NCBI GenBank assembly: GCA_018820855.1
Contig: JAHJNL010000028.1
Span: 62,001-126,000, forward strand
Direction: 5' to 3'
From: Pseudomonadota bacterium
GTDB lineage: Bacteria > Desulfobacterota > Desulfobulbia > Desulfobulbales > Desulfocapsaceae
DNA length: 64,000 bases
This document shows positions 11,210 to 34,469 of the stretch, one piece after another. Position numbers and translations under genes: made by a program. The notes beneath the pieces are model-generated. The model was not told where the DNA came from. It saw nothing but the letters and a program-made list of their open reading frames with translations, and did not search any database. Within the stretch, counting starts at the first letter, position 1; each line of letters starts with the position of its first letter.

Positions 11210-11231
11210 GTAGATTGTGGTAGTAGAAAAT

Positions 11232-16802: not shown

Positions 16803-18135
16803 ATGAAACGTTTTATTCTTGAATAATCCGAGGACGAATTTTACACAAGCCATTCAGATCTGGCCTTGGCTGTGCTGTGTATTAAACGATACAGCGACCT
16901 TCCCCGAGTAATTGGGCGGAAAATGAATAACCACAATAACCTCATTTCCCACATCGGCCTTCTTCGCAGCTACCTTGGTTTGCTCTGTCTTGGTAAGAGT
17001 GATTATGAAGCCGTAACCTCTATGCGGCAGGACGATTATTTTAAGGATTCGCTTGGAATCAACAATGTTCCGTGTCTGCGGAGGGATTGCGTCAGCGTTT
17101 TGATGAAAAAGCTGACGATTACCTGCCAATAGTACAAAAATGCTCGGTGTCCGTGTTGAAAAATGGCCAAGCAAATATCACAGGTCTTAATACAGGCCAT
17201 ATTCCACTTGATGCTGATGTCTTCCCTATGAATAACTCAGGTACGCAAAAAGAAAAAGTCAGTCGGACCTATAAGGGACATAATGGTTACGCTCCCATTG
17301 CTGCCTATCTTGGCATGGAAGGATGGTGTCTTGAAGTTGAATCGCGTCCCGGCAGTCAGCACAGCCAGAAAGGTTTTGTCCCATTTATAGAACGAGTCCT
17401 CTGCAAGGCAAGGGTTCTAACCAAAAAGAAAGTATTGGTGCGCCTCGATTCTTCCCGTGATGCAATAGAAAACCGGGTCCTCCTGAGAAACGCAGAAAAA
17501 GTTTCTTACATTATCAAGTGGAATCCCAGGCGAGAAGATATTAGCAAACTCCACAAAAGAGCCTTTGCCGAAGGCAAGGTAACAGAACCCCGTAACGGAA
17601 AAAGGGTTGCTCTGCTAACAATCCGAACGCGACAGACTTACAAGGGAAAAAACTATTGCTTTACCAAGGTAATCCAGGTAACAGAACGTACCGTTAACAA
17701 ACATGGTCCACTCTACTCGTACCGGATATTACCGTCGAGGGCTGGTGGACAAACTTAGATTTTCCCGAAAAAAAGATCATCTCCCTCTATCAAAATCATC
17801 GGTTGAGTGAGCAGTTCCACAGTGAGTTCAAAACTGATCTCGATTTCGAACGGTTACCAAGCGGAAAATTTGCGACCAATGCTCTTGTAATGGCTCTTGG
17901 GGCCTTTGCTTATAATATTCTGCGGTTTATAGGTCAGCTTAGTTTGCTCGGAGAAAAATCCCCGGTTCGGCATCCAGGTAAAAGGCGTCGGCTTAAAACG
18001 GTTATCCAGGAACTGATGTATCTAGCAGCACGTTTAATCAGAAGTAGCCGTAGATTAGGTTCGCGAGTTAGCAAACATTGTCCGGCCTATTCGGCATTTT
18101 CCGACCTATACGGTCGACTATTTGTATGTATCTGA
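16803..18135 (+). pseudogene. IS1380-family transposase, broken
   Basis: From ATG 16803 the frame reads MKRFILE, then a TAA, then continues in the same frame with SHSDLALAVLCIKRYSDL to about 17080. The protein continues in a second frame (17072-17758) containing TYKGHNGYAPIAAYLG and LEVESRPGSQHSQKGF, which are typical IS1380 blocks around the DDE catalytic residues. It ends in a third frame (after about 17745) with SEQFHSEFKTDLDFERLPSGKFATNALVMALG, also typical. One stop plus two frameshifts means that no full-length transposase can be made. The three fragments in the ORF track are therefore pieces of one dead gene. Confidence 0.9.
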
Positions 18136-19747: not shown

Positions 19748-19969
19748 TAATAATCTTCTGGCAGGCTCTAAGTTGCTTGTTCTTGAGAATGTCTAACTGT
19801 TTGTTATTATAACGTAAGATGGTCTAAAGGGACTGGGTGGTGTGCAAGCTTATGATGTTATTTGTCGAAACATTTTTCAGTGTTAAGGGAAGGATCAAGG
19901 ACAGAAAAATAATCTTTCCCGTAAGTTAATTGACAAACTTTGTCCAGATAAATTTTAAAGGTCATTTTA

Positions 19970-20893
19970 GTGAAGTATAGTATTGTTATTCCTGTTTTTA
20001 ATAGTCAAGATGTGGTAGGGGCGACCATCGACCGTACTGTTGAATTCTTTCGTAATGAGGGACTCGATTTCGAGATTATCCTGATTAACGACGGCAGCCC
20101 GGACCAGAGCTGGGAAGTGATACTGCAGAAGGCGCAGGAATATCCTAAGGTTATCGCAGTTGATCTGCTTCATAACTATGGTCAGCACGTGGCCAACCTG
20201 TGTGGCTTCTTTCAAGCGACAGGCGATTACGTCATCACCATGGATGACGACCTACAAAACCCGCCGAAAGAGATTCGTAAATTGATCGATAAAGCGGCAG
20301 AAGGTTACGATCTGGTCATTGGTCGTTTCAAAGAAAAGAAACACTCACTAGTTCGGCGCTTGGGCAGCCGTGTGGTCGGTTTCATCAACAGAAAAATATT
20401 TAACGCTCCGAAAGATTTGGTGTTGAGTAATTTTCGGATTATCCGGAAAGACGTGGTGCAAAGGGTGTGCGCCTATAAAGCTAGCTATCCATACATCCCC
20501 GGTTTGGTGGTTATGTTTTCCTCACATCGTGCGAACGTGTTGGTGGAGCATAACAAACGTGAGGTAGGGCAGAGCAATTATAACATCTGGCGTATCGCCA
20601 AACTCGTTTCTGAGATACTGTTCAATTACTCGTCTTATCCGTTACGGTTGGTCGCCGGGATAGGTCTGGTTACAGCGCTGATTAGCTTTACGCTTAGTGT
20701 TTTCTATCTGGTGGTTGATGTCGTTGTCGGTATCAATGTACCTGGATGGACCACCGTGATCGTGCTGCTTTCGTTTTTCAACGGCATGACCTTGTTCGTA
20801 CTGGGAATGGTTGGTGAGTATCTGGTACGCTTGATTAACCAGACCAGCCGTACAGACTTGTATCATGTCAAAGAGGTCGTCCGTGGCTCATAA
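19970..20893 (+). CDS. ArnC/GtrB-like polyprenyl-phosphate glycosyltransferase (set A)
   Basis: A 307-residue GT2 with a soluble catalytic part (SIVIPVFNSQDV, LINDGSPDQSW, ITMDDDLQNPP, and LSNFRIIRKDVV on the acceptor side) and two C-terminal membrane segments (about residues 225-250 and 260-285). This is the layout of ArnC, GtrB and dolichyl-phosphate mannose synthase, which load one sugar onto undecaprenyl phosphate on the inner face of the membrane. The start is GTG 19970 with AAAGG upstream. It heads a compact GC-rich block with a sulfotransferase, an ArnE/F-like pair and WecE, so the loaded sugar may be a 4-amino-4,6-dideoxyhexose. A homologue of the same type lies at 28372. Confidence 0.85.
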   Translation: MKYSIVIPVFNSQDVVGATIDRTVEFFRNEGLDFEIILINDGSPDQSWEVILQKAQEYPKVIAVDLLHNYGQHVANLCGFFQATGDYVITMDDDLQNPPKEIRKLIDKAAEGYDLVIGRFKEKKHSLVRRLGSRVVGFINRKIFNAPKDLVLSNFRIIRKDVVQRVCAYKASYPYIPGLVVMFSSHRANVLVEHNKREVGQSNYNIWRIAKLVSEILFNYSSYPLRLVAGIGLVTALISFTLSVFYLVVDVVVGINVPGWTTVIVLLSFFNGMTLFVLGMVGEYLVRLINQTSRTDLYHVKEVVRGS

Positions 20894-21647
20894 ACACCTG
20901 TTTATCGTTGGCGCACAACGTACCGGTACCACTTACCTTTACAAAGTGTTAGATGCACATCCTGTAGTATACATGGCCAAGCCGATCAAGCCGGAGCCGA
21001 AATATTTCTTGGACTCTGACAATGTGGTTGAGGGATATGCTACCTACTTCAGCACATACTTCTCGGATGCTGGCGATGTTTCATGGTTTGGCGAAAAAAG
21101 CACATCTTATATTGAAAATGAAGAAGCAGCACTTGCAATCAAGCGGATTATGCCTGACGCCCTTATTTTAGTGATGTTGCGCGATCCGGTGGAAAGAGCC
21201 ATTTCGCATTATAGCTTCACAAGAGATCACGACCTTGAACCATACGATATTGAACGAGCTATCCAGGAAGAGACGGCACGAAAAGATAATTGGCATGCCG
21301 CTGGAACTTCGGTTACTCCCTATGCTTACACCGAACGGGGCAAGTATGCCCAATATCTGGAATATTGGGAACGCTTGTTTGGAAAGGATAATCTGATACT
21401 GCTCGTGGCAGAGCAATTCATCGGCAATCTGTCGGCGGTTTCTATGCTCTATCAACGACTAGGAATATGCCCGGATTTCATCCCGCCCAGTCTGACTGAA
21501 CGTGTGAACGCAGGCTCTCCCGGACGAGCCAAATGCAAGATGACTGTCGATTTCAGGGCTTCGCTACAAGAGATGTTCCGGCCTTGGAACCGTAAATTAG
21601 AAGAAGGCTACGGGCTGGACTTGTCGTGCTGGGAGAAAAAGGCGTGA
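20865..21647 (+). CDS. Sulfotransferase domain protein (set A)
   Basis: A 260-residue cytoplasmic enzyme of the Sulfotransfer_1 type with PAPS loop FIVGAQRTGTTYLYKVL (about residues 12-28), catalytic-region KPEPKYF, 3'-phosphate motif VMLRDPVERAISHYSF and the late RGKYAQYLEYWERLF block. This arrangement matches heparan N-deacetylase/sulfotransferase-like and bacterial glycan sulfotransferases. The ATG lies 29 bases inside the preceding GT2 gene, which suggests coupling. The base composition is GC-rich like the rest of the block. Confidence 0.85.
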   Translation: MSKRSSVAHKHLFIVGAQRTGTTYLYKVLDAHPVVYMAKPIKPEPKYFLDSDNVVEGYATYFSTYFSDAGDVSWFGEKSTSYIENEEAALAIKRIMPDALILVMLRDPVERAISHYSFTRDHDLEPYDIERAIQEETARKDNWHAAGTSVTPYAYTERGKYAQYLEYWERLFGKDNLILLVAEQFIGNLSAVSMLYQRLGICPDFIPPSLTERVNAGSPGRAKCKMTVDFRASLQEMFRPWNRKLEEGYGLDLSCWEKKA

Positions 21648-22027
21648 ACCAACGTCTACTCGTAATCCTGTTGGTCAGTGTGGCTGTCGGGCTGAATCTT
21701 GTCAGTGCAGTCGTGCTGAAAGAAGCGGCTGATATGAAAAACGCTTCCCTGCTGGTGATTGTCGCTCTCGTTTTTCTGGTTGTTCTCATCAACTTGCTAC
21801 GTTTGGCCTTTTGGTCGGCGATTCACAAGCGCTTCCGGTTGTCCGATTCCTACCCGTTGACCAGTATGTTTTTTCCTATGATTTTGCTGTTGTCAGCGCT
21901 GTATGGTGAAGAGATTGTGATTGCCAAATTGATCGGTACTGCACTTATTACGCTGGGTGTCCTGATATTGATGAACGGTAAAAAGTCGGAGATGGCTGCG
22001 GATGAAACAGCGCGGGGCGCCCAGTGA
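21644..22027 (+). CDS. Small four-helix DMT/EamA-type membrane protein, ArnE/ArnF-like subunit 1
   Basis: About 127 residues with four hydrophobic helices, from LLVILLVSVAVGLNLVSAVV to a last helix ending LITLGVLILMNGKK, the pattern of half-size drug/metabolite transporters. I use GTG 21644, which overlaps the preceding TGA as GTGA; the track's GTG 21626 adds six residues. The next gene has the same design and follows at once. In the arn pathway two such proteins (ArnE and ArnF) flip undecaprenyl-phosphate-aminoarabinose, and the upstream ArnC-like gene makes the comparison attractive. The flippase role is inferred. Confidence 0.7.
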   Translation: MNQRLLVILLVSVAVGLNLVSAVVLKEAADMKNASLLVIVALVFLVVLINLLRLAFWSAIHKRFRLSDSYPLTSMFFPMILLLSALYGEEIVIAKLIGTALITLGVLILMNGKKSEMAADETARGAQ

Positions 22028-22344
22028 TTGGCATTTATTCATCACTTGCATCCTTGCTGTTTGCTTTGCTATGCACCTCTGTCGGACAATTGTTGTTCAG
22101 GATGTATTATGTGCGCACGAAAAAGATCTACTTGGTCGCCTCGCTGGGTATGTTCCTAGTTGTACCGGTGCTCAGCTACTTTGCGCTAGTCAATCTCACA
22201 TTGGCCTTCGTATACATGAGTACGGCGCTTACACATGTATTGGTGTTGATTATGTCACACATGTTCCTTAAAGAACATCTTACCAGAAAACAATACCTCT
22301 CGATGTCACTCATTGTCGTCGGGATAATCACCTTCAACCTTTGA
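22024..22344 (+). CDS. Small four-helix DMT/EamA-type membrane protein, ArnE/ArnF-like subunit 2
   Basis: About 106 residues: four predicted helices and the typical ending KEHLTRKQYLSMSLIVVGII, as in EamA/SMR-like proteins. The start is GTG 22024 in a GTGA overlap with the previous stop. The plus-strand ORF at 22002-22271 in another frame is a shadow. With the preceding gene it probably makes a heterodimer in the inner membrane. The substrate may be a polyprenyl-phosphate-linked sugar, by analogy with ArnE/ArnF. A general efflux role cannot be excluded from sequence alone. Confidence 0.7.
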   Translation: MIGIYSSLASLLFALLCTSVGQLLFRMYYVRTKKIYLVASLGMFLVVPVLSYFALVNLTLAFVYMSTALTHVLVLIMSHMFLKEHLTRKQYLSMSLIVVGIITFNL

Positions 22345-22375
22345 ACTGTCACAAGAAACCTACGGAAAACACGAG

Positions 22376-23518
22376 ATGCCTATCAGATTTAACATCCCGC
22401 CGCGAGCTGGCCGCGAGCTCGAATACATCAAGGAAGCGATCGATAGTGGTCGGCTATCTGGCAACGGGGAGTTTACCAAACGTTGCCATGTCAAATTGCA
22501 GAAGTTGACCGGTGCGGGCAAGGTGTTGCTTACTCCTTCATGCACTGATGCGTTGGAGATGGCTGCAATACTCGCTGGAGTCGGGCCGGGAGACGAAGTT
22601 GTCATGCCCTCGTACACCTTCGTCTCCACCGCTAATGCTTTCGTTTTGCGTGGTGTGACGCCGGTGTTCGTGGATATTTCTGCTGAAACCTTGAACATTG
22701 ACCCGGAGCAGGTCGCTAGCGCTGTTACCTCGAAAACTAAAGCTATCGTCCCGGTGCATTATGCTGGTGTTGGTTGTGACATGGATAGTCTGATGCAGAT
22801 TGCTCAAAAGTTCGGCGTGTTGGTGATCGAAGATGCCGCACAAGGCATGATGTCGGCGATCAATGGTGTGCCGTTGGGCGGTATAGGCGACCTGGCGGCA
22901 CTCAGCTTTCATGAAACCAAGAACATCGTTTCCGGCGAAGGCGGCGCATTACTGATCAATGATCCGGAGCTGTTTGAGCGATCCGAGATTGTCTGGGAGA
23001 AAGGTACCAATCGCTCTAAGTTCTTCCGCGGTGAAGTGGATAAATATACTTGGGTGGACATCGGCTCGTCTTACCTTCCTAGCGAACTACAAGCGGCCTT
23101 CTTGTTGGCGCAGCTCGAATCAGCGGAAGAGATCACCGGACGGCGCATGGCAGCATGGCAAAGATATAGGCAGAATTTGTTGGCGCTCGAAATCACTGGT
23201 AAGTTACGCTTACCGGTGATTCCGCAAGGGTATCGGCATAACTCCCACATGTTCTATATCCTGCTGAACTCTGCACAAGAGCAGGGCAAGCTGCTGGCGG
23301 GTATGAAGAAGGCAGGGGTCAACGCGGTATTCCACTACCAGCCGCTGCACAGTACGCCAGCCGGGCGTAAATATGGCAGGGCGCACGGTGTTCTCAAGGT
23401 TACCGATGATCTTTCCGGCAGACTTGTGCGCTTGCCGTTGTTCGCCGATATTTCACCTGGGCAGGTGGATTTTATATGCGAAGTACTTGAGCAAGTGATG
23501 GGTACGAGGGGATATTGA
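22376..23518 (+). CDS. wecE: WecE-type dTDP-4-amino-4,6-dideoxygalactose transaminase (set A)
   Basis: A 380-residue PLP enzyme that makes dTDP-Fuc4N from dTDP-4-keto-6-deoxyglucose with glutamate. It is very like enterobacterial WecE/RffA: VLLTPSCTDALEMAA, GDEVVMPSYTFVSTANAF, VPVHYAGVGCDMD, VIEDAAQGMMS and FHETKNIVSGEGG, with the PLP lysine at about residue 182, then VDKYTWVDIGSSYLPSELQAAF. All key blocks are intact. It is GC-rich (36 of 60 bases in the line at 22561). A clear paralogue with ordinary composition is at 33225. rmlA/rmlB are not in the window, so the keto-sugar must come from elsewhere. Confidence 0.9.
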   Translation: MPIRFNIPPRAGRELEYIKEAIDSGRLSGNGEFTKRCHVKLQKLTGAGKVLLTPSCTDALEMAAILAGVGPGDEVVMPSYTFVSTANAFVLRGVTPVFVDISAETLNIDPEQVASAVTSKTKAIVPVHYAGVGCDMDSLMQIAQKFGVLVIEDAAQGMMSAINGVPLGGIGDLAALSFHETKNIVSGEGGALLINDPELFERSEIVWEKGTNRSKFFRGEVDKYTWVDIGSSYLPSELQAAFLLAQLESAEEITGRRMAAWQRYRQNLLALEITGKLRLPVIPQGYRHNSHMFYILLNSAQEQGKLLAGMKKAGVNAVFHYQPLHSTPAGRKYGRAHGVLKVTDDLSGRLVRLPLFADISPGQVDFICEVLEQVMGTRGY

Positions 23519-24060
23519 TGCAGCAACTAAAGAAATATATGCTGGCGAACCAAGTGCGCATGCGGATATTTAACCAGACGTTTGTTTACGTCATTCACTT
23601 GGTGCAAAGCTTCCTGAATCTGATGCCGCCGTTTATCCGCAATCTTGGGTTCAAACTCATGATGGCACGCTGTGGGAAGAACGTATTTTTTGATTACAAC
23701 ATCTTTGTCAAATTTCCATGGCTTGTTGAAGTAGGAAACGATGTGGCGATCAATCGCGGCGTACAGTTTTTTCCGGCCTATCACGGTAACCATCGCATCA
23801 TTCTGGGCAGTGATGTCTATCTTGCTCCCAACGTTTGTTTTTTTGCCTCTGGTCACGATATTAACGACCTGAGTCAACTTGTCGGCGGCGACATTGTCAT
23901 AGGCGATCACGTCTGGATAGGAGCGAATGCGATTGTATTGGCCGGAGTGACCATCGGCGCTGGCAGTGTGATTGGTGCTGGTAGCGTAGTGACAAAGCGC
24001 ATCCCGCCGGACTCGCTAGCGGTCGGTAACCCGGCCCATGTAATCAGAACGAGGGAATGA
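23518..24060 (+). CDS. Hexapeptide-repeat O/N-acyltransferase (set A)
   Basis: About 180 residues. The C-terminal half has left-handed beta-helix hexads (VAINRGVQF, DIVIGDHVWIGANAIVLAGVTIGAGSVIGAGSVV) and ends with DSLAVGNPAHVIR, the classical sugar acetyltransferase tail. The likely catalytic His is in FASGHDINDL. The N-terminal 50 residues include an amphipathic stretch. The start is ATG 23518, overlapping the WecE stop by one base. Following WecE, it may N-acetylate dTDP-Fuc4N or O-acetylate another sugar; sequence alone does not choose. It ends the GC-rich block, and a 230-base gap follows in which I see no gene. Confidence 0.85.
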   Translation: MQQLKKYMLANQVRMRIFNQTFVYVIHLVQSFLNLMPPFIRNLGFKLMMARCGKNVFFDYNIFVKFPWLVEVGNDVAINRGVQFFPAYHGNHRIILGSDVYLAPNVCFFASGHDINDLSQLVGGDIVIGDHVWIGANAIVLAGVTIGAGSVIGAGSVVTKRIPPDSLAVGNPAHVIRTRE

Positions 24061-24290
24061 AAAGCATTAAATGTCAAAGGATCATTGAATCGCACTTATT
24101 GTTTTTTCATCCGGTGAAATCACCTCCAAAAACATTTACCACGTCATCTTGCCGAAGTCTGTTGTCGGTTTAATTGGCAATTTTGCATGGAATACCTTCC
24201 TTGGCTTATGTCGCCATTAATTTAAAACCACTTCAACAGTATCAATTCGAGCTGGCTGAGTATTGGTGGTAATCAGAAAATGAAAAGACA

Positions 24291-25994
24291 ATGAATAAGC
24301 TTATTATATCGACATTGAGCATGATTTTCTCCGAACGCAATAAAAAAGTGGCACTGGTAGTATTGCTTCTAAACGTGCTGATCGTGGGCTATTTTTGGAC
24401 GGTGCTTGGTAAAAACTACACCCCGGTAAATGATGGCTGGGCTAGTGTTTCTATTTTCGATTTTTCCGCTTCACGCGGGACGATTAGGTTCCCAAATTGG
24501 TCAGATGCAAGAGCTGTGAGGTCAATACCTTTCATTTTGGCGTCTCAATTTAAGGGCGATGGTTTTATCCCGATCAACTTACTTCTTGTCACAATAAATA
24601 TCTTCACAGGGCTTGGGATTTTCCTTGTTATAAGTCGTTTTTTCCCGAACAAGGTGTTGTTTTGTGCCATAGCATCGTTGTTCATCATGTATTTTCCCTA
24701 CGATGGAACAATGTTCTGGCTCGGTGCATTCGGTGTGAATCTGGGCTATCTGTTGTGCATATACGCCCTCTATTTTTTTATTTGTTCGATCGAAGATCAT
24801 TCCAAAACAACGTTCTGGGTGTCGGTCCTGTTGTTATTGGCTAGCGGTAGAACGTATCCGGGATACCTGCCTGTCCAAGTGCTTGTTCTCTTCCTATATT
24901 TAATTTCAATAAAAGATTCTTGGAAGACATGGTGGCCCAAGGCAGGTTTGTTTGTTGCCATATGGGGCGTCGGATTCATAAATTTTGCGTTACATGTCAG
25001 TTCTGGGCATGGACGAGAAAGCAAGGTCGTGAATTTCGAATTGAGTGAAGTATTGAAAGGCTTTGGTCATGCATTTAAGCAGTTGTACGTTGGTATGCAT
25101 GCAAAATTGTTTGAAGTTCATCTTGCGCAATTGGAACCAATGGTTGTTGTTGTCACACTTTTGGTTGCCGTTGCATTTTATGGAATTGGTCGAACAATGG
25201 TAGGTGAAAGTGATAGGGTGACAGATGGCAAGGAATATAAAAAGATCACACTCTACCTTGCCATAGTTGCCCCTCTAATACTGATAGCTGGCTATCTTCC
25301 TTTTGCGGTAAGCGATATTCGTTATGGCACTGATAGACAATTTCTTTTTGCGCGACCTGGTGTTGTGTTATTCTTTATGGCTATTCTATTTTGGTTGAGT
25401 TTTTCATTCATTAAACATAAAAAGGTTGCCGAAATTTGGATCGTTGTCTTGTCATCAGTAATTATTGGATTGTCCATTCAGGCCAAAACGAAGTTAGCCA
25501 ATGAATATCGTCTTGTTTCACAGGTTGAACGTATTTTTCTTGGTGATGTCGCAGAAATTATACCTAGAATTGTAGGAAATCCCTATATCTTTATATATTT
25601 TGAGGACAATGATGCAATTGTGAGCAAGAAAATCTTTGTGTTGTTGAATCATCCAGGGCGTTTGTTTGGTTATTTGTATGATCGGCCCTGGTTGGATGCG
25701 GTTGGGGTGAATCAATTACTAGTTAAGAGATACAAAATAAAAGTGCATGACAACATGCTGCAGATAAAAGACCAAAACATACCCATGGAGAGATTGTTGG
25801 TAATTGGTTATAGCCTTACACGTGGTGCGAGGATATTAGATCACTTGAAAATCCCGGTTGGAAAAAAAGGGGAGGAAATTGTTCAATTCTCCAAGCAAGA
25901 GATTGTACACGTGCCGCTGACGTCGAGGCAGAAGTGGTTCGTTGATGAGCGTGATAGGTTGTTGAAAATATTATCTTTAAGGGGGGGCTCGTAG
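24291..25994 (+). CDS. Multispanning membrane protein, GT-C-like glycosyltransferase candidate (set A)
   Basis: A 567-residue inner-membrane protein with roughly ten helices in the first 400 residues and a soluble C-terminal part of about 160 residues. The first helix (VALVVLLLNVLIVGYFWTVL) is followed by a long first outer loop with DGWASVSIFDFSAS, where acidic residues sit as in the catalytic loop of GT-C enzymes that use polyprenyl-phosphate sugars. No family was recognised from memory. Its place right after the ArnC-like/flippase-like block fits a periplasmic transferase that uses the flipped sugar. Composition is nearer to the window average than that of the GC-rich genes before it. Confidence 0.55.
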   Translation: MNKLIISTLSMIFSERNKKVALVVLLLNVLIVGYFWTVLGKNYTPVNDGWASVSIFDFSASRGTIRFPNWSDARAVRSIPFILASQFKGDGFIPINLLLVTINIFTGLGIFLVISRFFPNKVLFCAIASLFIMYFPYDGTMFWLGAFGVNLGYLLCIYALYFFICSIEDHSKTTFWVSVLLLLASGRTYPGYLPVQVLVLFLYLISIKDSWKTWWPKAGLFVAIWGVGFINFALHVSSGHGRESKVVNFELSEVLKGFGHAFKQLYVGMHAKLFEVHLAQLEPMVVVVTLLVAVAFYGIGRTMVGESDRVTDGKEYKKITLYLAIVAPLILIAGYLPFAVSDIRYGTDRQFLFARPGVVLFFMAILFWLSFSFIKHKKVAEIWIVVLSSVIIGLSIQAKTKLANEYRLVSQVERIFLGDVAEIIPRIVGNPYIFIYFEDNDAIVSKKIFVLLNHPGRLFGYLYDRPWLDAVGVNQLLVKRYKIKVHDNMLQIKDQNIPMERLLVIGYSLTRGARILDHLKIPVGKKGEEIVQFSKQEIVHVPLTSRQKWFVDERDRLLKILSLRGGS

Positions 25995-26115
25995 TTCTGT
26001 GCCAGTAAGTTGACAGCTGATATATTCAGCTGAAAAATGGTGACACAAAATTATGAATACATCCCATAAAAACGTAAGATGCTATTCAAGCGAACAAAGC
26101 CACCCTTCTACATAA

Positions 26116-27675
26116 ATGAGAAATTTTTATAAAACGTACTATTTGAATATTTTACTACTTTCACTCTTCTCTGTCAGTATGCTGTTTCTCTTTGAGGGAA
26201 GGTTTATTGTCGGATTGGCAGACGAAGGACTGCTGTGGTATGGCACATGGCGAAAAACGCTGGGAGAGATACCTTTTTTAGATTTTCAAGGCTACAGTCC
26301 CGGTCGGTATTATTGGGGGGCACTTTGGTATGACTCCTTCGGTCATAATCTACTTACCCTTCGTCTTTCAGAGTACAGTTTTGCAGCAATAGGTCTTTAT
26401 TTGCTTTCCTCACTTGTCTACCGTGCAACTCACAGTTGGCGGATCGTTTTTTTTGGTATTCTCCTTTTTTTACTTTGGATAGTGCCTATCCATAAAACTT
26501 TTTCACAAACAATCAGTATCTGTCAAATATTGCTTTTATTCTGGATAATTGATGATAAGGATAAAAAAAAAGTTTTCTTTGCCGGTATTCTATCAGGTTT
26601 GATGCTTTTTTGGGGCAAGAACTATGCGTTATACTCACTTCTCTCAATTTTCATTTATTGTTTGGCCCTCGCAATCAGAGAGCGGAGTATGGCAACCTGC
26701 CTAAAGAATAGTCGATTATTCATTCCAGGCTATCTGATGGGTTTGCTTCCATTTCTTTGCATGTTGTTGTTTGTAGATGGATTTGCCTTGACCTTTTATG
26801 AGTGGATTGTCAAAGTCGTTGATCGGGGGCATACTAACCTGACAATTTCTCTGACTTCACTTTTGGACTTTGTACCAACTTCGGATAATTGGACCTTACT
26901 GTGGAGCAGTAAAATTGCTTTTCACCTCTGTTTACTCCTTTTTTTCTGTGTAAGTCTATACAGCATCTATTTAATCATTTGTTTTTTGTTTAAAAGAAAA
27001 GTAGATTCGCTACAACTCGCAGCAGCTATCACTCAACTTGTCTCTCTGCATGTGTTTTTGTCTCGTGCCGATGTCAGTCATTTGGCGCAATCCTCGATGC
27101 CTGTGTTACTGCTCTCTTTACTGATTATTACACAACTCTCATCCAAAGTGCTTCAGCTTGGTTTTTCGGTTCTCATTATTCAGATTTCATTTTTCACTCT
27201 TTTTTATAAGCACCCAGGAATTGTTAGGTTTGTTTGTCCTCTGCAGTTTGAAAATATCATCATCAATGAGGAGCCTTTGATAACAACCAAACAGCAAAAA
27301 AAGATGATTGAAGCGGTTATCTTAACCGTAACACAAACCGTTAAAGCGGGAGAGTCTGTCTGGTTTGCCCCGGATATCCCATTTTTTTATCCATTGCTTT
27401 CACTCAAGTCGCCCACTTATTATCTTTTCTATATTTTCCCAAGACACAAAGAATTTGAATCTGACCTCATAAAAGATCTTGAAAATAACAATGTGCAATG
27501 GATATTACTTGGAAATACGAAATTTGATGGTCGAGAAGAGATGATGTTTAAAAATACACATCAGATAGTTTATCGGTATGTACAGGAGAATTACCAACCA
27601 GTCAAACAGATTGGTCGTTATGTCTATTATAAGAAAAGAATTGCCTCGCCGGGCTACATGGTTAACGGTATATAA
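26116..27675 (+). CDS. Multispanning membrane protein, GT-C-like glycosyltransferase candidate (set B)
   Basis: A 519-residue protein with about ten membrane helices. The first outer loop begins FIVGLADEGLLWYGTWRK and holds the adjacent Asp-Glu typical of GT-C/ArnT-like enzymes, then LDFQGYSPGRYYWGAL. A soluble region lies near the C-terminus. It opens set B, directly ahead of WbqC (one-base TAATG overlap), the second ArnC-like GT2 and DegT genes. The periplasmic transferase role is inferred from topology and context, not from a recognised family. Confidence 0.6.
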   Translation: MRNFYKTYYLNILLLSLFSVSMLFLFEGRFIVGLADEGLLWYGTWRKTLGEIPFLDFQGYSPGRYYWGALWYDSFGHNLLTLRLSEYSFAAIGLYLLSSLVYRATHSWRIVFFGILLFLLWIVPIHKTFSQTISICQILLLFWIIDDKDKKKVFFAGILSGLMLFWGKNYALYSLLSIFIYCLALAIRERSMATCLKNSRLFIPGYLMGLLPFLCMLLFVDGFALTFYEWIVKVVDRGHTNLTISLTSLLDFVPTSDNWTLLWSSKIAFHLCLLLFFCVSLYSIYLIICFLFKRKVDSLQLAAAITQLVSLHVFLSRADVSHLAQSSMPVLLLSLLIITQLSSKVLQLGFSVLIIQISFFTLFYKHPGIVRFVCPLQFENIIINEEPLITTKQQKKMIEAVILTVTQTVKAGESVWFAPDIPFFYPLLSLKSPTYYLFYIFPRHKEFESDLIKDLENNNVQWILLGNTKFDGREEMMFKNTHQIVYRYVQENYQPVKQIGRYVYYKKRIASPGYMVNGI

Positions 27676-28370
27676 TGAAAAAAGTAGCTCTCACGCAATC
27701 CTCATACATACCGTGGAAAGGGTATTTTGATCTCATCAATATGGTAGATGAGTTTATTCTCTTTGACAGTGTCCAGTATGTTAAAAAAAGCTGGAGAAAT
27801 CGTAATTATATCAAGGGAGCCAATGGTCCTTTGCTCCTAAGTATTCCCGTCCTTGTGAAAGGAAAACTCAGCCAACGTGTCCGTGATGTTATTGCTCGTG
27901 ATGATCAATGGCGAAAAAAACACTGGAAAGCCTTTGTTGTTAATTACTCAAAAAGTCAATATTTTAGTGAGTATAAAGATATCTTCGAAGCTCTTTATCT
28001 GAAACAAAATGTCTATGAACTGAGTACAATCAACTATCATTTTATTAAGACAATATGCGAACTTCTCGGCATTACAACCCAAATTAAATATGATACAGAC
28101 TATAATTATTTCCATGAAAATGCGAATATCGATAAGATCATCGAATTGTTACAGTGTGCGCAAACCGAAATATTTATTAACGGACCAACCGCACAACAGT
28201 ATATGACAAAAGAGATGTTTGCCGTGCACAATATTGATTTGCAATGGATGGATTATGATGGCTATCCAGAATATACCCAACTCCATCCTCCCTTTGAGCA
28301 TCATGTCTCAATTTTGGATCTCCTGTTTAATGAAGGTCCAAACGCGAATAAATTTCTAAAGAGTTTTTAG
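27675..28370 (+). CDS. WbqC-family protein
   Basis: A 231-residue cytoplasmic protein with the family hallmarks: N-terminal VALTQSSYIPWKGYFDLI, FILFDSVQYVKKSWRNRNYIKG, LLSIPV and the C-terminal YPEYTQLHPPFEHHVSILDLLFNEG. WbqC proteins accompany dTDP-4-amino-sugar genes in O-antigen loci and are thought to acylate or otherwise modify the 4-amino group; I know of no firm biochemical assignment. It overlaps the upstream GT-C-like gene by one base and precedes the GT2 by one base, so it belongs to the same transcript. In set A its place seems to be filled by the hexapeptide acyltransferase. Confidence 0.9.
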   Translation: MKKVALTQSSYIPWKGYFDLINMVDEFILFDSVQYVKKSWRNRNYIKGANGPLLLSIPVLVKGKLSQRVRDVIARDDQWRKKHWKAFVVNYSKSQYFSEYKDIFEALYLKQNVYELSTINYHFIKTICELLGITTQIKYDTDYNYFHENANIDKIIELLQCAQTEIFINGPTAQQYMTKEMFAVHNIDLQWMDYDGYPEYTQLHPPFEHHVSILDLLFNEGPNANKFLKSF

Positions 28371-28371
28371 T

Positions 28372-29301
28372 ATGAAGATGCCCAAATATTCAGTGATTGT
28401 TCCGGTATACAATTCCTCTGCGACCTTGATTGCCATTTCTGAACGCATCAAAGCTTTTTTTGCTGAGAGACCTCAGGTAGATTATGAATTGATCTATGTT
28501 AACGATAGCCCGTTCTCCCGGACAACGTGTGAGACATTGGCAAAACTTGTAGAAGAGAATTCCCATGTGGTAGTCATTGAATTGATGAAAAACTTTGGAC
28601 AGCAGGAGGCTACGTTATGCGGTATTGAGCATTCTTGTGGTGATTACATTATCACCATGGATGATGATTTACAGCATGCGCCTGAAGACATTGCTCTGCT
28701 CATGAATAAACAACATCATGATGTTGTGGTCGCCAAATACAAACAGAAAAAACATTCGCGCTTTAAATGTATTACCAGCAGTATTAAAGGTTACTTTGAT
28801 TATCTCTTACTCGGAAAGCCTTATCAGCTCAAATTGACACCATTTCGCTTGATTAGTCGTCATGTTTCGCGACTGATGCTTGAGAGGAAAACTTCCTATC
28901 CTTTTATTCCGGCACTCTTTTTTTCCGTGACAGATGATGTTGTCAATGTGGAACTCGATCATTATGAACGCCAGGAAGGTAAAGGCAGTTATACTCTCTT
29001 TAAGTTGATTAAAATATTCAGTAATCTGCTGATAAACAACTCTTCATTTTTGTTGCGTCTTGTAGGTTATGTCGGAATCAGTAGCGCATTTTTCAGCTTC
29101 TTTTATGGCGCTTCAATTATTTTTAAAAAAGTTGTTTACGGACATACTGCATTAGGTTGGTCATCCATTATGGTGGCTGTTTTGTTTTTCGGTGGTACCA
29201 TCTTGTTTGCACTGGGAGTAGTCGGTGAGTATCTTATCCGAATCATCGTTACTGCGGAACAACGTCCTACCTATTATGTCAGAAAAGTGGTTAAGCAGTA
29301 G
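28372..29301 (+). CDS. ArnC/GtrB-like polyprenyl-phosphate glycosyltransferase (set B)
   Basis: A 309-residue GT2 of the same design as the gene at 19970: YSVIVPVYNSSATL, LIYVNDSPF, NFGQQEATLCG (compare NYGQHVANLCG), ITMDDDLQHAP, TSYPFIPAL and two C-terminal helices ending GVVGEYLIRII. Such enzymes load a sugar onto undecaprenyl phosphate. Only moderate identity to the set A copy and ordinary GC content argue for separate origins rather than a recent duplication. It sits between WbqC and a DegT-family gene with 0-1 base gaps, so a 4-amino sugar donor is likely. Confidence 0.85.
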   Translation: MKMPKYSVIVPVYNSSATLIAISERIKAFFAERPQVDYELIYVNDSPFSRTTCETLAKLVEENSHVVVIELMKNFGQQEATLCGIEHSCGDYIITMDDDLQHAPEDIALLMNKQHHDVVVAKYKQKKHSRFKCITSSIKGYFDYLLLGKPYQLKLTPFRLISRHVSRLMLERKTSYPFIPALFFSVTDDVVNVELDHYERQEGKGSYTLFKLIKIFSNLLINNSSFLLRLVGYVGISSAFFSFFYGASIIFKKVVYGHTALGWSSIMVAVLFFGGTILFALGVVGEYLIRIIVTAEQRPTYYVRKVVKQ

Positions 29302-30380
29302 TGGTTGCGGCCATACTTAAAGAAAAGTTTTCCCACCTTTTTCCTCAAAAACAGCTATTTTTTACAGGGAGCGGGACATCGGCTCTTTTTCTCTATTTGA
29401 AGGCTACTTCGATTTCCGGTAAACAGATCCTCTGTCCGTCAAATATTTGTTATAGTGTTGTCTTTGCTATCATGGAAAGTGGAAATGTCCCTCTTTTCTG
29501 TGATGTAGATCCTTATTCGGGAAATATTACATTAACCGATCTGCAACAGGTAATTGATCAACATCATGATATTGGGGCTGCTGTTTTGCCGTATATGTAT
29601 GCAAATGCTATCGAGGATCTGCCGTTAATCGTTCAACATTGTAAAGAGAAAGGGATACGTGTTGTCGAGGACCTGGCTGCCGCGTTGGGGACAGAGTACA
29701 GAGAGTATCAACCCGGAACCTTGGGTGATGCCGCCATTTATAGTTTTGGGCGGAATAAACATATCGATCTAGGGAATGGAGGCTTGCTGGGAATTAATAC
29801 GATGGGTGAATTTTCCATTGAAATTTTGAGGCCTTTTCATGAAAGAGCCTCTTTGGTGCAGCAACGTTTTGAGCGAGCATATAAAAAAGTACTTTACTCA
29901 ACAAGTCACCTTGAACGACTTGAATCTCTGCAAGATTTGGCACGAAACTCCGCGTCATCATATATTGGAGGTTTTTTACCCGATACCGACTATGTAAAGT
30001 TGCTTGAAAAACGATTGCATGAGGCAATGTCTGAAAAAAAACGACGATGTGAGCTTGTATCATATATTGATGCGAATATTATCTTTGCTTCAAGGCTCAT
30101 TCAACCCTATGCCTTTGCCGACGGCAGTAATATCTGGCGTTATAATCTCCTTGTAAGCGATAAGGGCTTCAAAGATAAGTTGATAAACAAGCTACTCGAG
30201 GCCAAGATGCCTGTAAGTATCTGGTACCCTCCCATCAACAAATTATTCAGTAAAGAATTCCCTCCCAAGGTGATAGAGTTTTCCAGAAAAATTGTTAATC
30301 TGGATTTTTCTAAAATGGATCGTACTGCAATTGCTACTTTTATTGCATTGGTAAACAGACAGGTTAGGGCAACGCATTGA
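29301..30380 (+). CDS. Divergent DegT/DnrJ/EryC1-family PLP aminotransferase
   Basis: A 359-residue fold-type-I PLP enzyme starting at GTG 29301, whose first base is the last of the preceding TAG. Visible blocks are FFTGSGTSALFLYLKAT, QILCPSNICYSVVFAIM, VVEDLAAALGTEY (PLP-ring Asp) and YSFGRNKHIDLGNGGLL, with the PLP lysine at about residue 153. The blocks are degenerate compared with WecE but the catalytic residues remain, so it may act on a different keto-sugar or serve as a partner. It is followed by a TTGA-coupled sulfotransferase gene. The substrate is unknown. Confidence 0.75.
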   Translation: MVAAILKEKFSHLFPQKQLFFTGSGTSALFLYLKATSISGKQILCPSNICYSVVFAIMESGNVPLFCDVDPYSGNITLTDLQQVIDQHHDIGAAVLPYMYANAIEDLPLIVQHCKEKGIRVVEDLAAALGTEYREYQPGTLGDAAIYSFGRNKHIDLGNGGLLGINTMGEFSIEILRPFHERASLVQQRFERAYKKVLYSTSHLERLESLQDLARNSASSYIGGFLPDTDYVKLLEKRLHEAMSEKKRRCELVSYIDANIIFASRLIQPYAFADGSNIWRYNLLVSDKGFKDKLINKLLEAKMPVSIWYPPINKLFSKEFPPKVIEFSRKIVNLDFSKMDRTAIATFIALVNRQVRATH

Positions 30381-31423
30381 ATACACTTTTCCTTACCGGT
30401 ATGTCACGGTCCGGGACGACACTTCTCGATAAGCTGTTGAGCTGTCATCGTGACGTACATATTCTGTCTCAGCCTTTTCCGTACTTATTTATTGATGCAG
30501 TAAAAAAATTTTTGCAGACACAAGGCATCGATAAATATTATGTGATGAATGATGAGATCAAAAGTCGCATCTATCAACCGGAGAAGTTTGAGCAATATCT
30601 TACGCATTACAGAGTTACTGCAGCTGAAATCAGAGATCGTTTTGCGGCCATGCAAAACTATTCAGGGCAATATGCTAAGCCTTCCCGGTGCTTGGAAAAT
30701 TCCAATCGTGAAATATCATCATTTTATCAACTCTATCAAGAAGCTCTCTCCTTGTTTGATATGGATGACAGGTTGCAATATGTCGGTTCTAAAGAGACCG
30801 TTTGCGAAGCCTTTATTCCTTATTTTTGCCGTCGTGGGATCAAGACGATTTTGATCGTCAGGGATCCCCGTGATGTTCTGGCTTCCATGAATTACGCCAT
30901 GGGCTCGAAATATGCGGGTACTAAGAAACCTGCACTATTTGTGTTGCGTACGTGGAGAAAGAGTTTTGAATACCTTTATCGCCTGAAAGAGGAAGGTGAT
31001 TTCCTTTTTATATGTTATGAGGATCTGGTACGTGCAACTGATATTACATTGGAAAAAATAACTCAATTTCTGGGAATTACTCCTTTTGAGTTGAGGCGAT
31101 TTGAGCATGATATAATCGATCAAAACGGGGAGAAATGGCAGGCCAACTCATCATTTTATGAACAGAAAAATGGCATTTCTGTCGATTCGATAAGTATTTA
31201 TCGAACCCAATTGACAAGTCAGGAAATTGAGTATGTTGATGTCATTTGTGGCAAAGAGATGCGCTGGCTTGGCTATAAGCCAGGGGAGGTATCTGATCCC
31301 GGACGTGTCATCCGAAGCTATAGAGATTATGATGTCGCAACTTCGCATGAAGTGAGTGCGGATTACAGTAGTAAACCTGAGAATATTGAACATGAAGTCG
31401 CATGGTTGCATGCTAGGCTTTGA
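30377..31423 (+). CDS. Sulfotransferase family protein (set B, first)
   Basis: A 348-residue protein with PAPS loop FLTGMSRSGTTLLDKLL at residues 4-20 and 3'-phosphate motif ILIVRDPRDVLASMNYAM near residue 160. An inserted helical region (about residues 30-110) separates it from short family members. The start is TTG 30377, overlapping the preceding TGA as TTGA; the first downstream ATG is inside the P-loop, which would destroy it, so the TTG is well supported. The ORF in the track at 30549 is a shadow. It probably sulfates a glycan or lipid-linked sugar together with the next gene. Confidence 0.85.
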   Translation: MNTLFLTGMSRSGTTLLDKLLSCHRDVHILSQPFPYLFIDAVKKFLQTQGIDKYYVMNDEIKSRIYQPEKFEQYLTHYRVTAAEIRDRFAAMQNYSGQYAKPSRCLENSNREISSFYQLYQEALSLFDMDDRLQYVGSKETVCEAFIPYFCRRGIKTILIVRDPRDVLASMNYAMGSKYAGTKKPALFVLRTWRKSFEYLYRLKEEGDFLFICYEDLVRATDITLEKITQFLGITPFELRRFEHDIIDQNGEKWQANSSFYEQKNGISVDSISIYRTQLTSQEIEYVDVICGKEMRWLGYKPGEVSDPGRVIRSYRDYDVATSHEVSADYSSKPENIEHEVAWLHARL

Positions 31424-31442
31424 AATATAATAAGGATTTTAA

Positions 31443-32312
31443 ATGGTAAGCGATTCACCTATGCCCGATGCGATTATGGCCGGTATGTCCAGAGCCGGTA
31501 CGACTTTTATGTACCACTATCTTCAGAAGCACCCTGACATCTTTATACCGACTCGCAAGGAGGTTTGTTTCTTTGCCCACCATTTCGGTCGTGGTTTGGA
31601 ATGGTATCATGACTTTTATAAAGAGAAAAAAAGAGAACAGAAGACACTGGATATCTGTGGTGTCTACTTTTCAACACCTGAGTCGCTGGAGAGAATTTAC
31701 CAGTACAACCCAGACATCAAGATTGTTCTGAGCATTCGCAACCCCTTTGAATGGATATATTCCTATTACGAACAGTATTCGGGGACATTCGATGTTCCCC
31801 CATTTAAAGAGTTTCTCCAGGGATGCAGTGTCGAGCGTGAAGGGGAGACCCAACACATTGATTTTAGTAATCAGATTATCAGCAAAACCATCGGGAATTA
31901 TCTGAAACTTTTCAAGGGCAATGTTCTTATTTACGATTTTTCTTACTTCGAAGAAGACCCGCTGGCCGTTCTAAATAAAATCGAAACCTTTCTGGGAGTT
32001 TCTAACTATTTCAATGAAACTAATTTTCAAAACCATAAAATCAATGCACGCGGCCGAAAAAGGGTATCCTGGTTCGCAAAATTGCTTCATGTCAAAGGCG
32101 TCGTCGATCTTATTTTAAAACTCTTTCCACGCAGATTGATTCTGGCAATTCGAGAAAAGCTGGAGCAAAATGCCGTGAAAAATCTTAATGTTAAGCAGGT
32201 GAAGGCAAAAGAGTATTCGTCAGAGGAGAAGGCTCTGGTCCAAGAGATTTTTCAAGCTGATCATGACTATATTAGGCAACTGTTTGAAGATGCGAGAATA
32301 TTTGTTGTCTAA
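31443..32312 (+). CDS. Sulfotransferase family protein (set B, second)
   Basis: A 289-residue protein with loop IMAGMSRAGTTFMYHYLQKHP, RKEVCFFAHHF, and 3'-phosphate motif VLSIRNPFEWIYSYYEQY, the layout of bacterial Sulfotransfer_1 enzymes. A basic C-terminal segment (RRLILAIREKLEQNAVKNL) may bind the membrane. The ATG is 19 bases after the previous stop. Its 3' end overlaps the next gene by 23 bases. Two adjacent sulfotransferases suggest two sulfated positions or two acceptor sugars. Confidence 0.85.
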   Translation: MVSDSPMPDAIMAGMSRAGTTFMYHYLQKHPDIFIPTRKEVCFFAHHFGRGLEWYHDFYKEKKREQKTLDICGVYFSTPESLERIYQYNPDIKIVLSIRNPFEWIYSYYEQYSGTFDVPPFKEFLQGCSVEREGETQHIDFSNQIISKTIGNYLKLFKGNVLIYDFSYFEEDPLAVLNKIETFLGVSNYFNETNFQNHKINARGRKRVSWFAKLLHVKGVVDLILKLFPRRLILAIREKLEQNAVKNLNVKQVKAKEYSSEEKALVQEIFQADHDYIRQLFEDARIFVV

Positions 32313-33228
32313 CCTTAGTGTGTTGCTCAAGCTATTGGTGGGGATTTCCTTGACAGGAGTGCTGTTTTATTTTGTTGACTTGAAGCAAATGGTAATACAA
32401 CTGCGTGTGCTGAACTGGCAGGCATTGATGCTCATTTTTCTCTCTTCTTTTTTGTTGCTGCTGATGCAGACATTACGGCTTCATCTTTTGATTAAACATT
32501 ATATTCCCATGTATTTTAATACATTTCGATTAACATTGATCGGGCAATTTTTTAGTAACTTTCTTCCAGGAAGTGTTAGTGGCGATGTGTATAAAATATA
32601 TTTTCTTAATAAAGAATGCGCATCGCTGACTTCAGCTGTCACCCTTGTCGCTATTGACAGAATAATTGGTTTTCTGCTTGTTTTGTTTTTTGGAGGAGTA
32701 TACTTTTTTTGTTTTTCCTCCGGCCAGGTAGATATTGCTGTTGATATATCAAAAACTTTGAACTTTTTACTCTTATTCGTAGCTGTTATTTTGATTGGGT
32801 TGAGTATCTATAAAACTAGTGCACTTGTTCAATCTAAGTGGGATCGAATGATTGCTAATTTCAAGGTTGAGTGTAAAAAGTTTTGCTTTTCGGAATTCCT
32901 GTTTTTTTTAATTGTCGCTGTGGGGGCCTATTTTGTCCGTTTGCTGAAATTTTTTGTTCTCATCTGGGCTTTTGGGCAATCATTGCCAGTTGTGGATCTT
33001 ATGTTGTTGGTGCTTATTATTCAACTGGTTGGAATGCTCCCTCTTTCTGTTGGTGGTTTGGGACTTGTCGAGGGATCGCTTGTTTTCGGCTTGAGCCTGT
33101 TTGCCATAGCACCTGATATTGGCCTGGCCATTGCTCTTGTCAATCGCTTCATCGTATGGCTTTTCTCCCTCTTGGGCGGGCTTTTTTGGCTGACAACAAA
33201 AAAGCAACAAAGGAGGGAGATTGTATGA
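32290..33228 (+). CDS. AglD/LPG-synthase-type flippase-like membrane protein (set B)
   Basis: A 312-residue protein with eight or so helices, starting at ATG 32290 (the track's 32263 start adds nine residues). Signature blocks of the lysylphosphatidylglycerol-synthase transmembrane family (UPF0104) are FFSNFLPGSVSGDVYKIY, AIDRIIGFLLVLFFGGV and LPLSVGGLGLVEGSLVFGL. Members sit next to polyprenyl-phosphate glycosyltransferases in many glycan loci and are proposed flippases. Here it takes the place held by the ArnE/F-like pair in set A. It ends in an ATGA overlap with the WecE gene. Confidence 0.8.
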   Translation: MREYLLSNLSVLLKLLVGISLTGVLFYFVDLKQMVIQLRVLNWQALMLIFLSSFLLLLMQTLRLHLLIKHYIPMYFNTFRLTLIGQFFSNFLPGSVSGDVYKIYFLNKECASLTSAVTLVAIDRIIGFLLVLFFGGVYFFCFSSGQVDIAVDISKTLNFLLLFVAVILIGLSIYKTSALVQSKWDRMIANFKVECKKFCFSEFLFFLIVAVGAYFVRLLKFFVLIWAFGQSLPVVDLMLLVLIIQLVGMLPLSVGGLGLVEGSLVFGLSLFAIAPDIGLAIALVNRFIVWLFSLLGGLFWLTTKKQQRREIV

Positions 33229-34358
33229 TCCCTTTTAATCAACCATCACGTACTGGTGATGAAGAAAAGTACGTGCTTGATGCCTTGCGGAGTCAACGAA
33301 TTTCCGGAGAAGGGCAATATACGCAAAAATGCCATAAATGGTTTGAAGAACACCTGGGATGCTATAAAGCACTCTTGACGCCTTCATGTACCCACGCGCT
33401 GGAAATGGCTGCCATTCTGATAAATATACAGCCCGGTGATGAAGTGATTATGCCCAGTTACACATTCGTTTCAACTGCCAATGCCTTTGTGTTGCGTGGT
33501 GCAACTGTCGTTTTTGTGGATATTCGGCCCGATACGATGAATATGGATGAGAAGCTCATCGAATCGGCTATTACTGCAAAAACAAAAGCGATCGTACCTG
33601 TTCACTATGCCGGTGTTGCCTGTGAGATGGAGACGATTATGGCCATTGCCGAACAATATAATCTTTTTGTTATCGAAGATGCGGCGCAAGGGATGATGGC
33701 AACCTACAAGAAGAGGTCGTTGGGCACTATTGGTCATATGGGGGTGTATAGTTTTCATGAAACCAAGAACTATACCAGCGGCGGAGAAGGCGGATTGTTA
33801 ATTGTTAACGATGAACAGTTTGTCGAGCGGGCTGAATTTATTCGAGAGAAAGGGACCGATAGGAATAAATTTTTCCGTGGAATGATTGATAAGTACAGTT
33901 GGGTCGACATTGGTAGCAGTTACTTGCCTAGTGAGTTGCAAGCTGCGTATCTATGGGCACAGCTGGAACATGCGGAACGAATTGATAACCAACGGCTTAC
34001 GAGTTGGACTGCCTATTATGAGCAATTGCTTCCGTTGCAGCGAGAAGGGTATATTACACTGCCTACTATTCCAGATACTATCAAATACAACGGGCACATG
34101 TTCTATATCAAGGTTGCCACCGATCACCTGCAGCGAGAGCTTATTGCCTATCTCAAGGCCTATGATATTCAGGCTGTCTTTCATTACATCCCTTTGCACA
34201 GTAGTGTCGCTGGCAGAAAGCATGGACGGTTCAACGACCGAGATCAGTTTACAACTGTAGAGTCCAGGCGTCTGGTTCGTTTACCCATGTACTATAAAAT
34301 CACTATTGAAGATATCCGAACCGTAACCAAAACGATCCACCGCTTTTTTGATAAATAG
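33225..34358 (+). CDS. wecE: WecE-type dTDP-4-amino-4,6-dideoxygalactose transaminase (set B)
   Basis: A 377-residue PLP enzyme starting at ATG 33225, with GGAGG upstream and an ATGA overlap with the previous stop; the track's start at 33156 is too early. It is strongly WecE-like: ALLTPSCTHALEMAAILI, GDEVIMPSYTFVSTANAF, VPVHYAGVACEME, VIEDAAQGMMATYKKR, FHETKNYTSGGEGG (PLP lysine about residue 181) and VDIGSSYLPSELQAAYLWAQ. It should make dTDP-Fuc4N. It is clearly related to the set A copy at 22376 but differs at many positions and in base composition, so the two were probably acquired separately. Confidence 0.92.
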   Translation: MIPFNQPSRTGDEEKYVLDALRSQRISGEGQYTQKCHKWFEEHLGCYKALLTPSCTHALEMAAILINIQPGDEVIMPSYTFVSTANAFVLRGATVVFVDIRPDTMNMDEKLIESAITAKTKAIVPVHYAGVACEMETIMAIAEQYNLFVIEDAAQGMMATYKKRSLGTIGHMGVYSFHETKNYTSGGEGGLLIVNDEQFVERAEFIREKGTDRNKFFRGMIDKYSWVDIGSSYLPSELQAAYLWAQLEHAERIDNQRLTSWTAYYEQLLPLQREGYITLPTIPDTIKYNGHMFYIKVATDHLQRELIAYLKAYDIQAVFHYIPLHSSVAGRKHGRFNDRDQFTTVESRRLVRLPMYYKITIEDIRTVTKTIHRFFDK

Positions 34359-34459: not shown

Positions 34460-34469
34460 TGAAAACGTG

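Follow-up and report, generated by a model that had tools for sequence, protein, structure and literature searches.

The 64,000-nucleotide stretch of DNA analyzed here (the window; positions 62,001 to 126,000 of contig JAHJNL010000028.1, GenBank assembly GCA_018820855.1, from a bacterium of the Desulfocapsaceae) carries two adjacent gene sets, set A at window positions 19970 to 25994 and set B at 26116 to 34358. We read these, with a probability of about 0.62, as two independent three-component (Gtr/Arn) cassettes that would each add a 4-amino-4,6-dideoxyhexose, probably sulfated on its lipid carrier. The sets are two separable modules, as the initial annotation of this DNA had proposed, each with an ArnC-like family 2 glycosyltransferase (GT2), a WecE-type transaminase, at least one sulfotransferase, and candidates for a flippase and for a polytopic transferase. 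All genes listed in that annotation proved to be open reading frames (ORFs) at their given positions with family assignments upheld by Pfam and NCBIfam, and one further gene of the DegT family, at 29301 to 30380, had been overlooked.

The window lies on contig 4 of a 4.82 Mb assembly. Its genes make it a polysaccharide locus: besides several glycosyltransferases, epimerases, and sulfotransferases, they encode two permeases of the ABC-2 type (Wzm) and two ATPases of the Wzt type. Both sets are compact runs of plus-strand genes, most of which overlap or almost touch their neighbors. Set A reads GT2A, ST1, EF1, EF2, WecE_A, HexAT, a spacer of 230 bp, and GTC_A; set B reads GTC_B, WbqC, GT2B, DegT3, ST2, ST3, LPGf, and WecE_B, followed by a protein with 12 transmembrane (TM) segments. 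The GC content of the set A enzymes is 0.44-0.53, versus 0.36-0.45 in set B. Because the genes are tightly packed, differ in GC content between the sets, and recur in other genomes in both cases, we do not regard the sets as chance assemblies.

Lipid-loading, transaminase, and sulfotransferase genes

GT2A (19970 to 20893) is an ArnC/GtrB-like GT2 (PF00535, E = 1.4e-29) and the predicted polyprenyl-phosphate sugar synthase of set A. Its best curated family was NCBIfam ArnC (198.7 bits), and its nearest solved structures in the PDB were ArnC (169.6 bits) and the GtrB protein sll0501 (145 bits). GT2B (28372 to 29301), 36% identical to GT2A, also had ArnC as its best curated family (146.3 bits). 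Both proteins combine the PF00535 domain with two C-terminal TM segments, the features expected of the GT2 in a three-component (Gtr-type) system, and both scored less than half of the ArnC equivalog cut-off of 529 bits; by sequence, they are ArnC-like and not ArnC.

The transaminase assignments were clear-cut. WecE_A (22376 to 23518) reached 569 bits against NF008687 and 559 bits against TIGR02379, and WecE_B (33225 to 34358; 55% identical to WecE_A), whose ATG at 33225 is preceded by the Shine-Dalgarno sequence AGGAGG, reached 625 and 651 bits, where the cut-offs are 375 and 435 bits, respectively. WecE structures were also the closest solved relatives of both proteins in the PDB (E = 1.9e-132 to 6blg for WecE_A; E = 4e-164 for WecE_B), and neither protein passed for an ArnB transaminase (197 and 205 bits; cut-off 631). 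Both are thus predicted dTDP-4-keto-6-deoxyhexose 4-transaminases, and the genome encodes RmlB. The two curated WecE models name different epimers, and WecE identity does not fix a galacto or a gluco configuration, i.e., Fuc4N or Qui4N.

Each set also encodes sulfotransferases, of different kinds. ST1 of set A (20865 to 21647; PF13469) belongs to the heparan N-/3-O-sulfotransferase type that depends on 3'-phosphoadenosine 5'-phosphosulfate (PAPS), with profile matches to NDST1 (E = 2.7e-24) and HS3ST (E of about 1e-18) and with PAPS motifs (a GAQRxGTT-type 5' loop and a 3' RxPxxRAxS) that are conserved across 19 homologues. Since PAPS is cytosolic and the hydropathy of ST1 reveals no N-terminal signal or anchor, sulfation by this enzyme must be cytosolic. 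We rejected a definite assignment of ST1 as an N-sulfotransferase: an alignment reading puts Phe118 at the position of the catalytic His716 of NDST, so that N-sulfation cannot be assigned and the target atom could be O or N. ST2 of set B (30377 to 31423; PF13469, E = 1.6e-18) is SULT-type; it matched hydroxysteroid sulfotransferases in the PDB (E of about 1e-5), grouped with cytosolic SULT enzymes, and is at best distantly related to ST1 (15 bits). The second sulfotransferase of set B, ST3, lies at 31443 to 32312 (PF00685, E = 5.8e-12).

Recurrence and exchange of the sets

The initial annotation had suggested a search for co-occurrence in other genomes, and such a search found the GT2, WecE, sulfotransferase, and transporter genes of set A together. 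Within the host family, three other genomes (loci L017, L018, and L019) hold GT2A, ST1, EF1, EF2, and WecE, two of them with the acyltransferase as well, and members of at least seven bacterial phyla share combinations of set A genes. Scanning a single genome for each species (names as submitted, mostly metagenome-assembled genomes; ORF calls in high-GC loci made mechanically) gave 22 close relatives of GT2A at 45-62% identity, followed by a gap down to 40% and below. These close relatives came from Chloroflexota, Nitrospirota, Pseudomonadota, Actinomycetota, Bacteroidota, Campylobacterota, Planctomycetota, and Omnitrophota. Their partner genes vary: the Planctomycetota locus (L053) has neither ST1 nor WecE, the Campylobacterota locus (L057) WecE only, and the Omnitrophota locus (L054, on a contig of 3.8 kb) ST1 only.

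In 14 of the 21 scored loci of the GT2A clade, the GT2 has a heparan N-/3-O-sulfotransferase-like gene as its direct neighbor; none of the 58 more distant ArnC-like loci has one there (Fisher p = 9e-11, a value that overstates independence because the loci share ancestry). WecE was more widely distributed, lying within 6 kb of the GT2 in 36 of 79 loci (13/21 in the clade, 23/58 elsewhere), and was co-oriented with it in all 36, so that the absence of a link between WecE and GT2, which the initial annotation had named as fatal to its proposal, is not what we observed. Pairwise distances of GT2A correlated with the distances of both partners (ST1, r = 0.68; WecE, r = 0.60), and none of 5000 permutations reached either value. 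In the tree, members of the host family were scattered, with L018 pairing with Marinobacter (support 100/99) and L019 with Flammeovirga (94/84), which suggests horizontal transfer of the GT2A cassette. As a separate observation, many loci from Lachnospiraceae, Ruminococcus, Solobacterium, and other Firmicutes (L063-L115) have WecE near an ArnC-like GT2 with no sulfotransferase match; these pairs suggest a widespread unsulfated 4-amino-sugar route.

These patterns bear on an alternative that we consider improbable, in which WecE would feed the cytoplasmic backbone pathway of an ABC-exported polymer, the GT2s would load another sugar, and the backbone would be the cytoplasmic substrate of the sulfotransferases. 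The surroundings fit this picture: two Wzm and two Wzt proteins, other glycosyltransferases, and further sulfotransferases mark the window as an O-polysaccharide locus of the ABC-transporter kind. It accounts poorly, however, for the placement of WecE beside ArnC-like GT2s across phyla, for an ST1 that is specific to the GT2A clade and co-diverges with GT2A, and for the module described next, where an acetyltransferase-GT2 fusion comes with its own 4-transaminase.

In a congeneric genome (G018, locus L125), DNA matches the window at 18365 to 19747 (74%) and again from 26116 on (84%), and the intervening 19748 to 26115, i.e., exactly set A including GTC_A, is missing. What stands there instead is a fusion of a NeuD/PglD/VioB-type sugar acetyltransferase with an ArnC/PgfS-like GT2 (L125:1965-3599), along with a DesI-like 4-transaminase, a protein of the LPG_synthase_TM type, and another with 11 TM segments. 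Judged by these gene families, the swap fills equivalent functional slots with different families, and the fusion links amino-sugar acylation with the lipid-loading step. The rest of set B is present in the same genome with 89% DNA identity from window position 30012 on (locus L036), and the WbqC gene runs off one contig end; GT2B was not seen there because the intervening part is an assembly gap. The 468-aa protein at 18341 to 19747, which begins with a hydrophobic segment and has no match in Pfam or NCBIfam, is kept at the edge of the swap in L125, and both a broken transposase immediately left of set A (17072 to 18135; DDE_Tnp_1_4 in two frames) and a WcbI gene (15473 to 16402) are absent from the corresponding place. 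The window also encodes, at 11217 to 14573, a 1118-aa fusion of sulfotransferase, GT2, and Glyco_trans_1-type domains; L017 and L043 carry homologues of it close to cassette A.

Set B recurs too. Homologues of GTC_B occurred in five relatives, with WbqC adjacent or near in every one. The host family supplied four further genomes (27-30% identity), where WbqC adjoined GTC_B in three and lay about 3.2 kb off in the fourth. A GT2 and one or two small EamA-type proteins were encoded nearby in every one of the four, and WecE in three. Locus L034 has orthologues of GT2B (55%) and ST2 side by side, with an EamA protein about 3 kb off and no LPGf homologue found in the stretch.

Whole replacement of set A in the congeneric genome, with parts of set B kept on both sides of the assembly gap, is difficult to reconcile with a single pathway in which GT2A, GT2B, and both transporters would serve one disaccharide or redundant loading onto one acceptor. 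The two sets also differ in GC content and modifying enzymes, and their sulfotransferases and transporters belong to different families. Even so, the 55% identity of the WecE pair and the side-by-side position of the sets speak for a single pathway, as do three loci (L126-L128) in which two polytopic proteins come with a single GT2 and a single WecE; on balance, we judge it somewhat less probable still than the backbone alternative.

Transporter, transferase, and modifying-enzyme candidates

Two small membrane proteins of the drug/metabolite transporter (DMT) type are the candidate lipid flippase of set A. EF1 (21626 to 22027) had ArnF as its best named match (NCBIfam; E = 1.8e-4, 21.9 bits, cut-off 99) and would be the ArnF-like subunit; EF2 (22024 to 22344), the ArnE-like candidate, matched EamA (E = 7.2e-7, above cut-off) and, more weakly, NCBIfam ArnE (E = 0.0074, 16.5 bits, cut-off 92) and a small multidrug resistance (SMR) EbrA/EmrE profile (E = 0.05). 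The pair was always found together and never singly, in eight GT2A-clade loci including the window, beside GT2 and ST1. Elsewhere in the clade, the transporter slot holds GtrA (L059), a Wzx-like protein (L038), or LPG_synthase_TM, which in L041 is encoded on the opposite strand; this exchange for other families of lipid-sugar transporters runs counter to the drug transporter that the initial annotation had allowed for. That the pair is an SMR-type small-molecule exporter, with the sugar-loaded undecaprenyl phosphate (Und-P) crossing by another route, finds some backing in the EbrA/EmrE matches of EF2 and is very unlikely given the ArnF match of EF1, the retention of the pair beside GT2 and ST1, and the GtrA, LPG-type, or Wzx-like genes where the pair is missing. 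In set B, the flippase candidate is LPGf, an AglD/LPG_synthase_TM-type membrane protein (PF03706, E = 2e-31; TIGR00374 "flippase-like", 93.7 bits, cut-off 43.2), whose ORF runs from 32263 to 33228 and had earlier been started at 32290.

For the transfer step, each set offers a polytopic candidate for a glycosyltransferase of the GT-C type. GTC_A (24291 to 25994; 567 aa) has about 10 TM segments and a C-terminal extramembrane domain, and its loss together with the rest of set A in the congeneric genome is the best evidence for a role in that set. GTC_B (26116 to 27675; 519 aa) bears a DEG motif after TM1 and matched no Pfam or NCBIfam family and, by sequence search, no PDB entry. Because Pfam and NCBIfam have no match for either protein, the label "GT-C-like" for 24291 and 26116 was an inference of the initial annotation. 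A model of GTC_B built from six sequences (predicted local distance difference test, pLDDT, 53.6; predicted template modeling score, pTM, 0.39) gave a weak hint of a GT-C fold, where the initial annotation had named a different family as grounds for refutation: the first seven Foldseek matches were oligosaccharyltransferases (OST/STT3, AglB) or ArnT (E = 0.05-0.3). Profile comparison of the polytopic proteins across loci gave no significant homology, and the polytopic slot in related loci passed cut-offs for PMT_2 (L038, L019, L059), GT87 (L054), and PIG-U (L050), which we take to be GT-C families. Behind set B, the 12-TM protein (34467 to 36047, plus strand) matched no family and may be a second transferase or unrelated; its GC content of 0.28 is far below its surroundings, and it is kept in place in the congeneric genome (L036). 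Elsewhere, a family of membrane proteins of ~580 aa (one matching DUF6056) lies beside GT2, EamA, and WecE genes (L035:11591-13318, L045:7159-8907, L128:7132-8877, and others) and may be another transferase family of such cassettes.

The remaining genes are candidate sugar-modifying enzymes. HexAT of set A (23515 to 24060; PF00132) is a left-handed beta-helix acyltransferase, WcaF-like (PRK10502, 91.9 bits, cut-off 192), that recurs in L017, L018, L039, L043, and L059. Set B has the WbqC-family protein (27675 to 28370; PF08889, E = 7.5e-69), which is linked to GTC_B in relatives, and DegT3 (29301 to 30380), a divergent DegT/DnrJ/EryC1 aminotransferase-like protein (PF01041, E = 3.1e-30, N-terminal half) with a conserved pyridoxal phosphate lysine that aligns with that of WecE. 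In another family of the order, GT2, DegT3-like, and WbqC genes are consecutive (L037:7965-10655), accompanied by an EamA-type gene and WecE; this run suggests that DegT3 and WbqC jointly act on one modification.

Proposed pathway and comparison with known systems

In the pathway that we infer, the RmlB product would be converted by WecE into a dTDP-4-amino-4,6-dideoxyhexose, which the ArnC-like GT2 would load onto Und-P. Optional acylation by HexAT in set A, or the action of WbqC and DegT3 in set B, would modify the sugar in the cytosol, and the PAPS-dependent sulfotransferase would probably sulfate it, lipid-linked, on the inner leaflet. The EF1/EF2 pair or the LPG/AglD-type LPGf would then flip the product, and GTC_A or GTC_B would transfer the sugar to a periplasmic acceptor. 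The lipid-linked sugar is the simplest target of ST1, because ST1 follows GT2A and not WecE (L055, L056, L058); a nucleotide sugar is a possible alternative substrate. The acceptor is most likely an ABC-exported O-polysaccharide made by the surrounding genes, as suggested by this genomic context and by published three-component systems (PMC11127046).

Several observations weigh against these two cassettes as we describe them. GTC_A had no match in Pfam, NCBIfam, the PDB, plasmids, or relatives, and its single-sequence structure model (pLDDT 39.6) was discarded; for GTC_B, all Foldseek E values were at least 0.05. EF1 and EF2 both failed the ArnE/ArnF equivalog tests, with scores far under the cut-offs. 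The GT2A clade includes loci with ST1 and no WecE (the three named above) and others with WecE and no ST1 match (L041, L048, L051, L057), so the link between sulfation and the 4-amino sugar is not a strict one. The locus counts refer to related loci and not to independent events, with some of the contigs short. Set B is real and found in fewer loci than set A. A GT2B search at E of at most 1e-70 across 297 genomes of the phylum returned only the window itself. The loci with one GT2, one WecE, and two polytopic proteins also weigh against our reading. Nothing that we found contradicts the Und-P-based decoration that the initial annotation had put forward, and its Fuc4N, flipping, GTC_A activity, and sulfation step go beyond what the analysis establishes.

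More tentatively, the GT2A-clade partner could make a bacterial sulfated polyprenyl-monophosphate 4-amino-4,6-dideoxyhexose donor, possibly N-sulfated as in heparan, that is flipped and transferred. On this view, the cassette would have spread across many phyla and exchanged its flippase and transferase along the way. Such a recurrent GT2-sulfotransferase-transaminase cassette would extend the three-component systems, known in bacteria for glucose, galactose, pentofuranoses, and 4-amino-4-deoxy-L-arabinose (L-Ara4N), to a sulfated 4-amino-6-deoxy sugar, and sulfation, if true, would turn a normally cationic decoration zwitterionic or anionic. Because unrelated families fill the transporter slot around one GT2 clade, the cassettes would also lend themselves to clean genetic tests of which proteins flip Und-P-sugars, among them the AglD/LPG-type candidates.

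We found no Und-P 4-amino-sugar/sulfotransferase system in the open-licence literature, and four known systems provide the nearest comparisons. The enterobacterial common antigen (ECA) shares the WecE family. In ECA, Fuc4NAc is part of an undecaprenyl-diphosphate-linked repeat unit handled by Wzx/Wzy, whereas no Wzx-family gene (Polysacc_synt) was present among the Pfam-tested window genes, a set that leaves out the ORFs at both window ends. The Arn system for L-Ara4N (ArnB-ArnC-ArnE/F-ArnT) likewise joins a 4-transaminase, an ArnC-like GT2 acting on Und-P, a small DMT pair, and a polytopic transferase. It differs in using ArnB on a UDP-pentose where sets A and B use a WecE-type enzyme on a dTDP-hexose, and in acting on lipid A where the two sets sit in an O-polysaccharide locus; moreover, the sets contain no ArnA, ArnD, or ArnT family match and add sulfotransferases. 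In Halobacterium salinarum, sulfotransferases act on a dolichyl phosphate-linked glycan prior to transfer (PMC11980604), a precedent for sulfation at the polyprenyl-phosphate-linked stage, although that system is archaeal and builds a tetrasaccharide with sulfated hexuronic acids for N-glycosylation. The Gtr/Gml/GT136 systems, in which a polyprenyl-phosphate sugar synthase, a flippase, and a GT-C enzyme modify O-polysaccharide made by the ABC or Wzy route (PMC11127046), follow the three-component logic that we propose for the two sets, with flippase families that vary between systems; sets A and B differ from them in making their donor sugar within the cassette, in its apparent sulfation, and in having an EamA pair or an LPG-type protein as the candidate transporter and not GtrA or MATE. 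Set beside these systems, what appears new here is a sulfotransferase as a conserved partner of one GT2 clade in an Arn-like decoration system with predicted biochemical steps.

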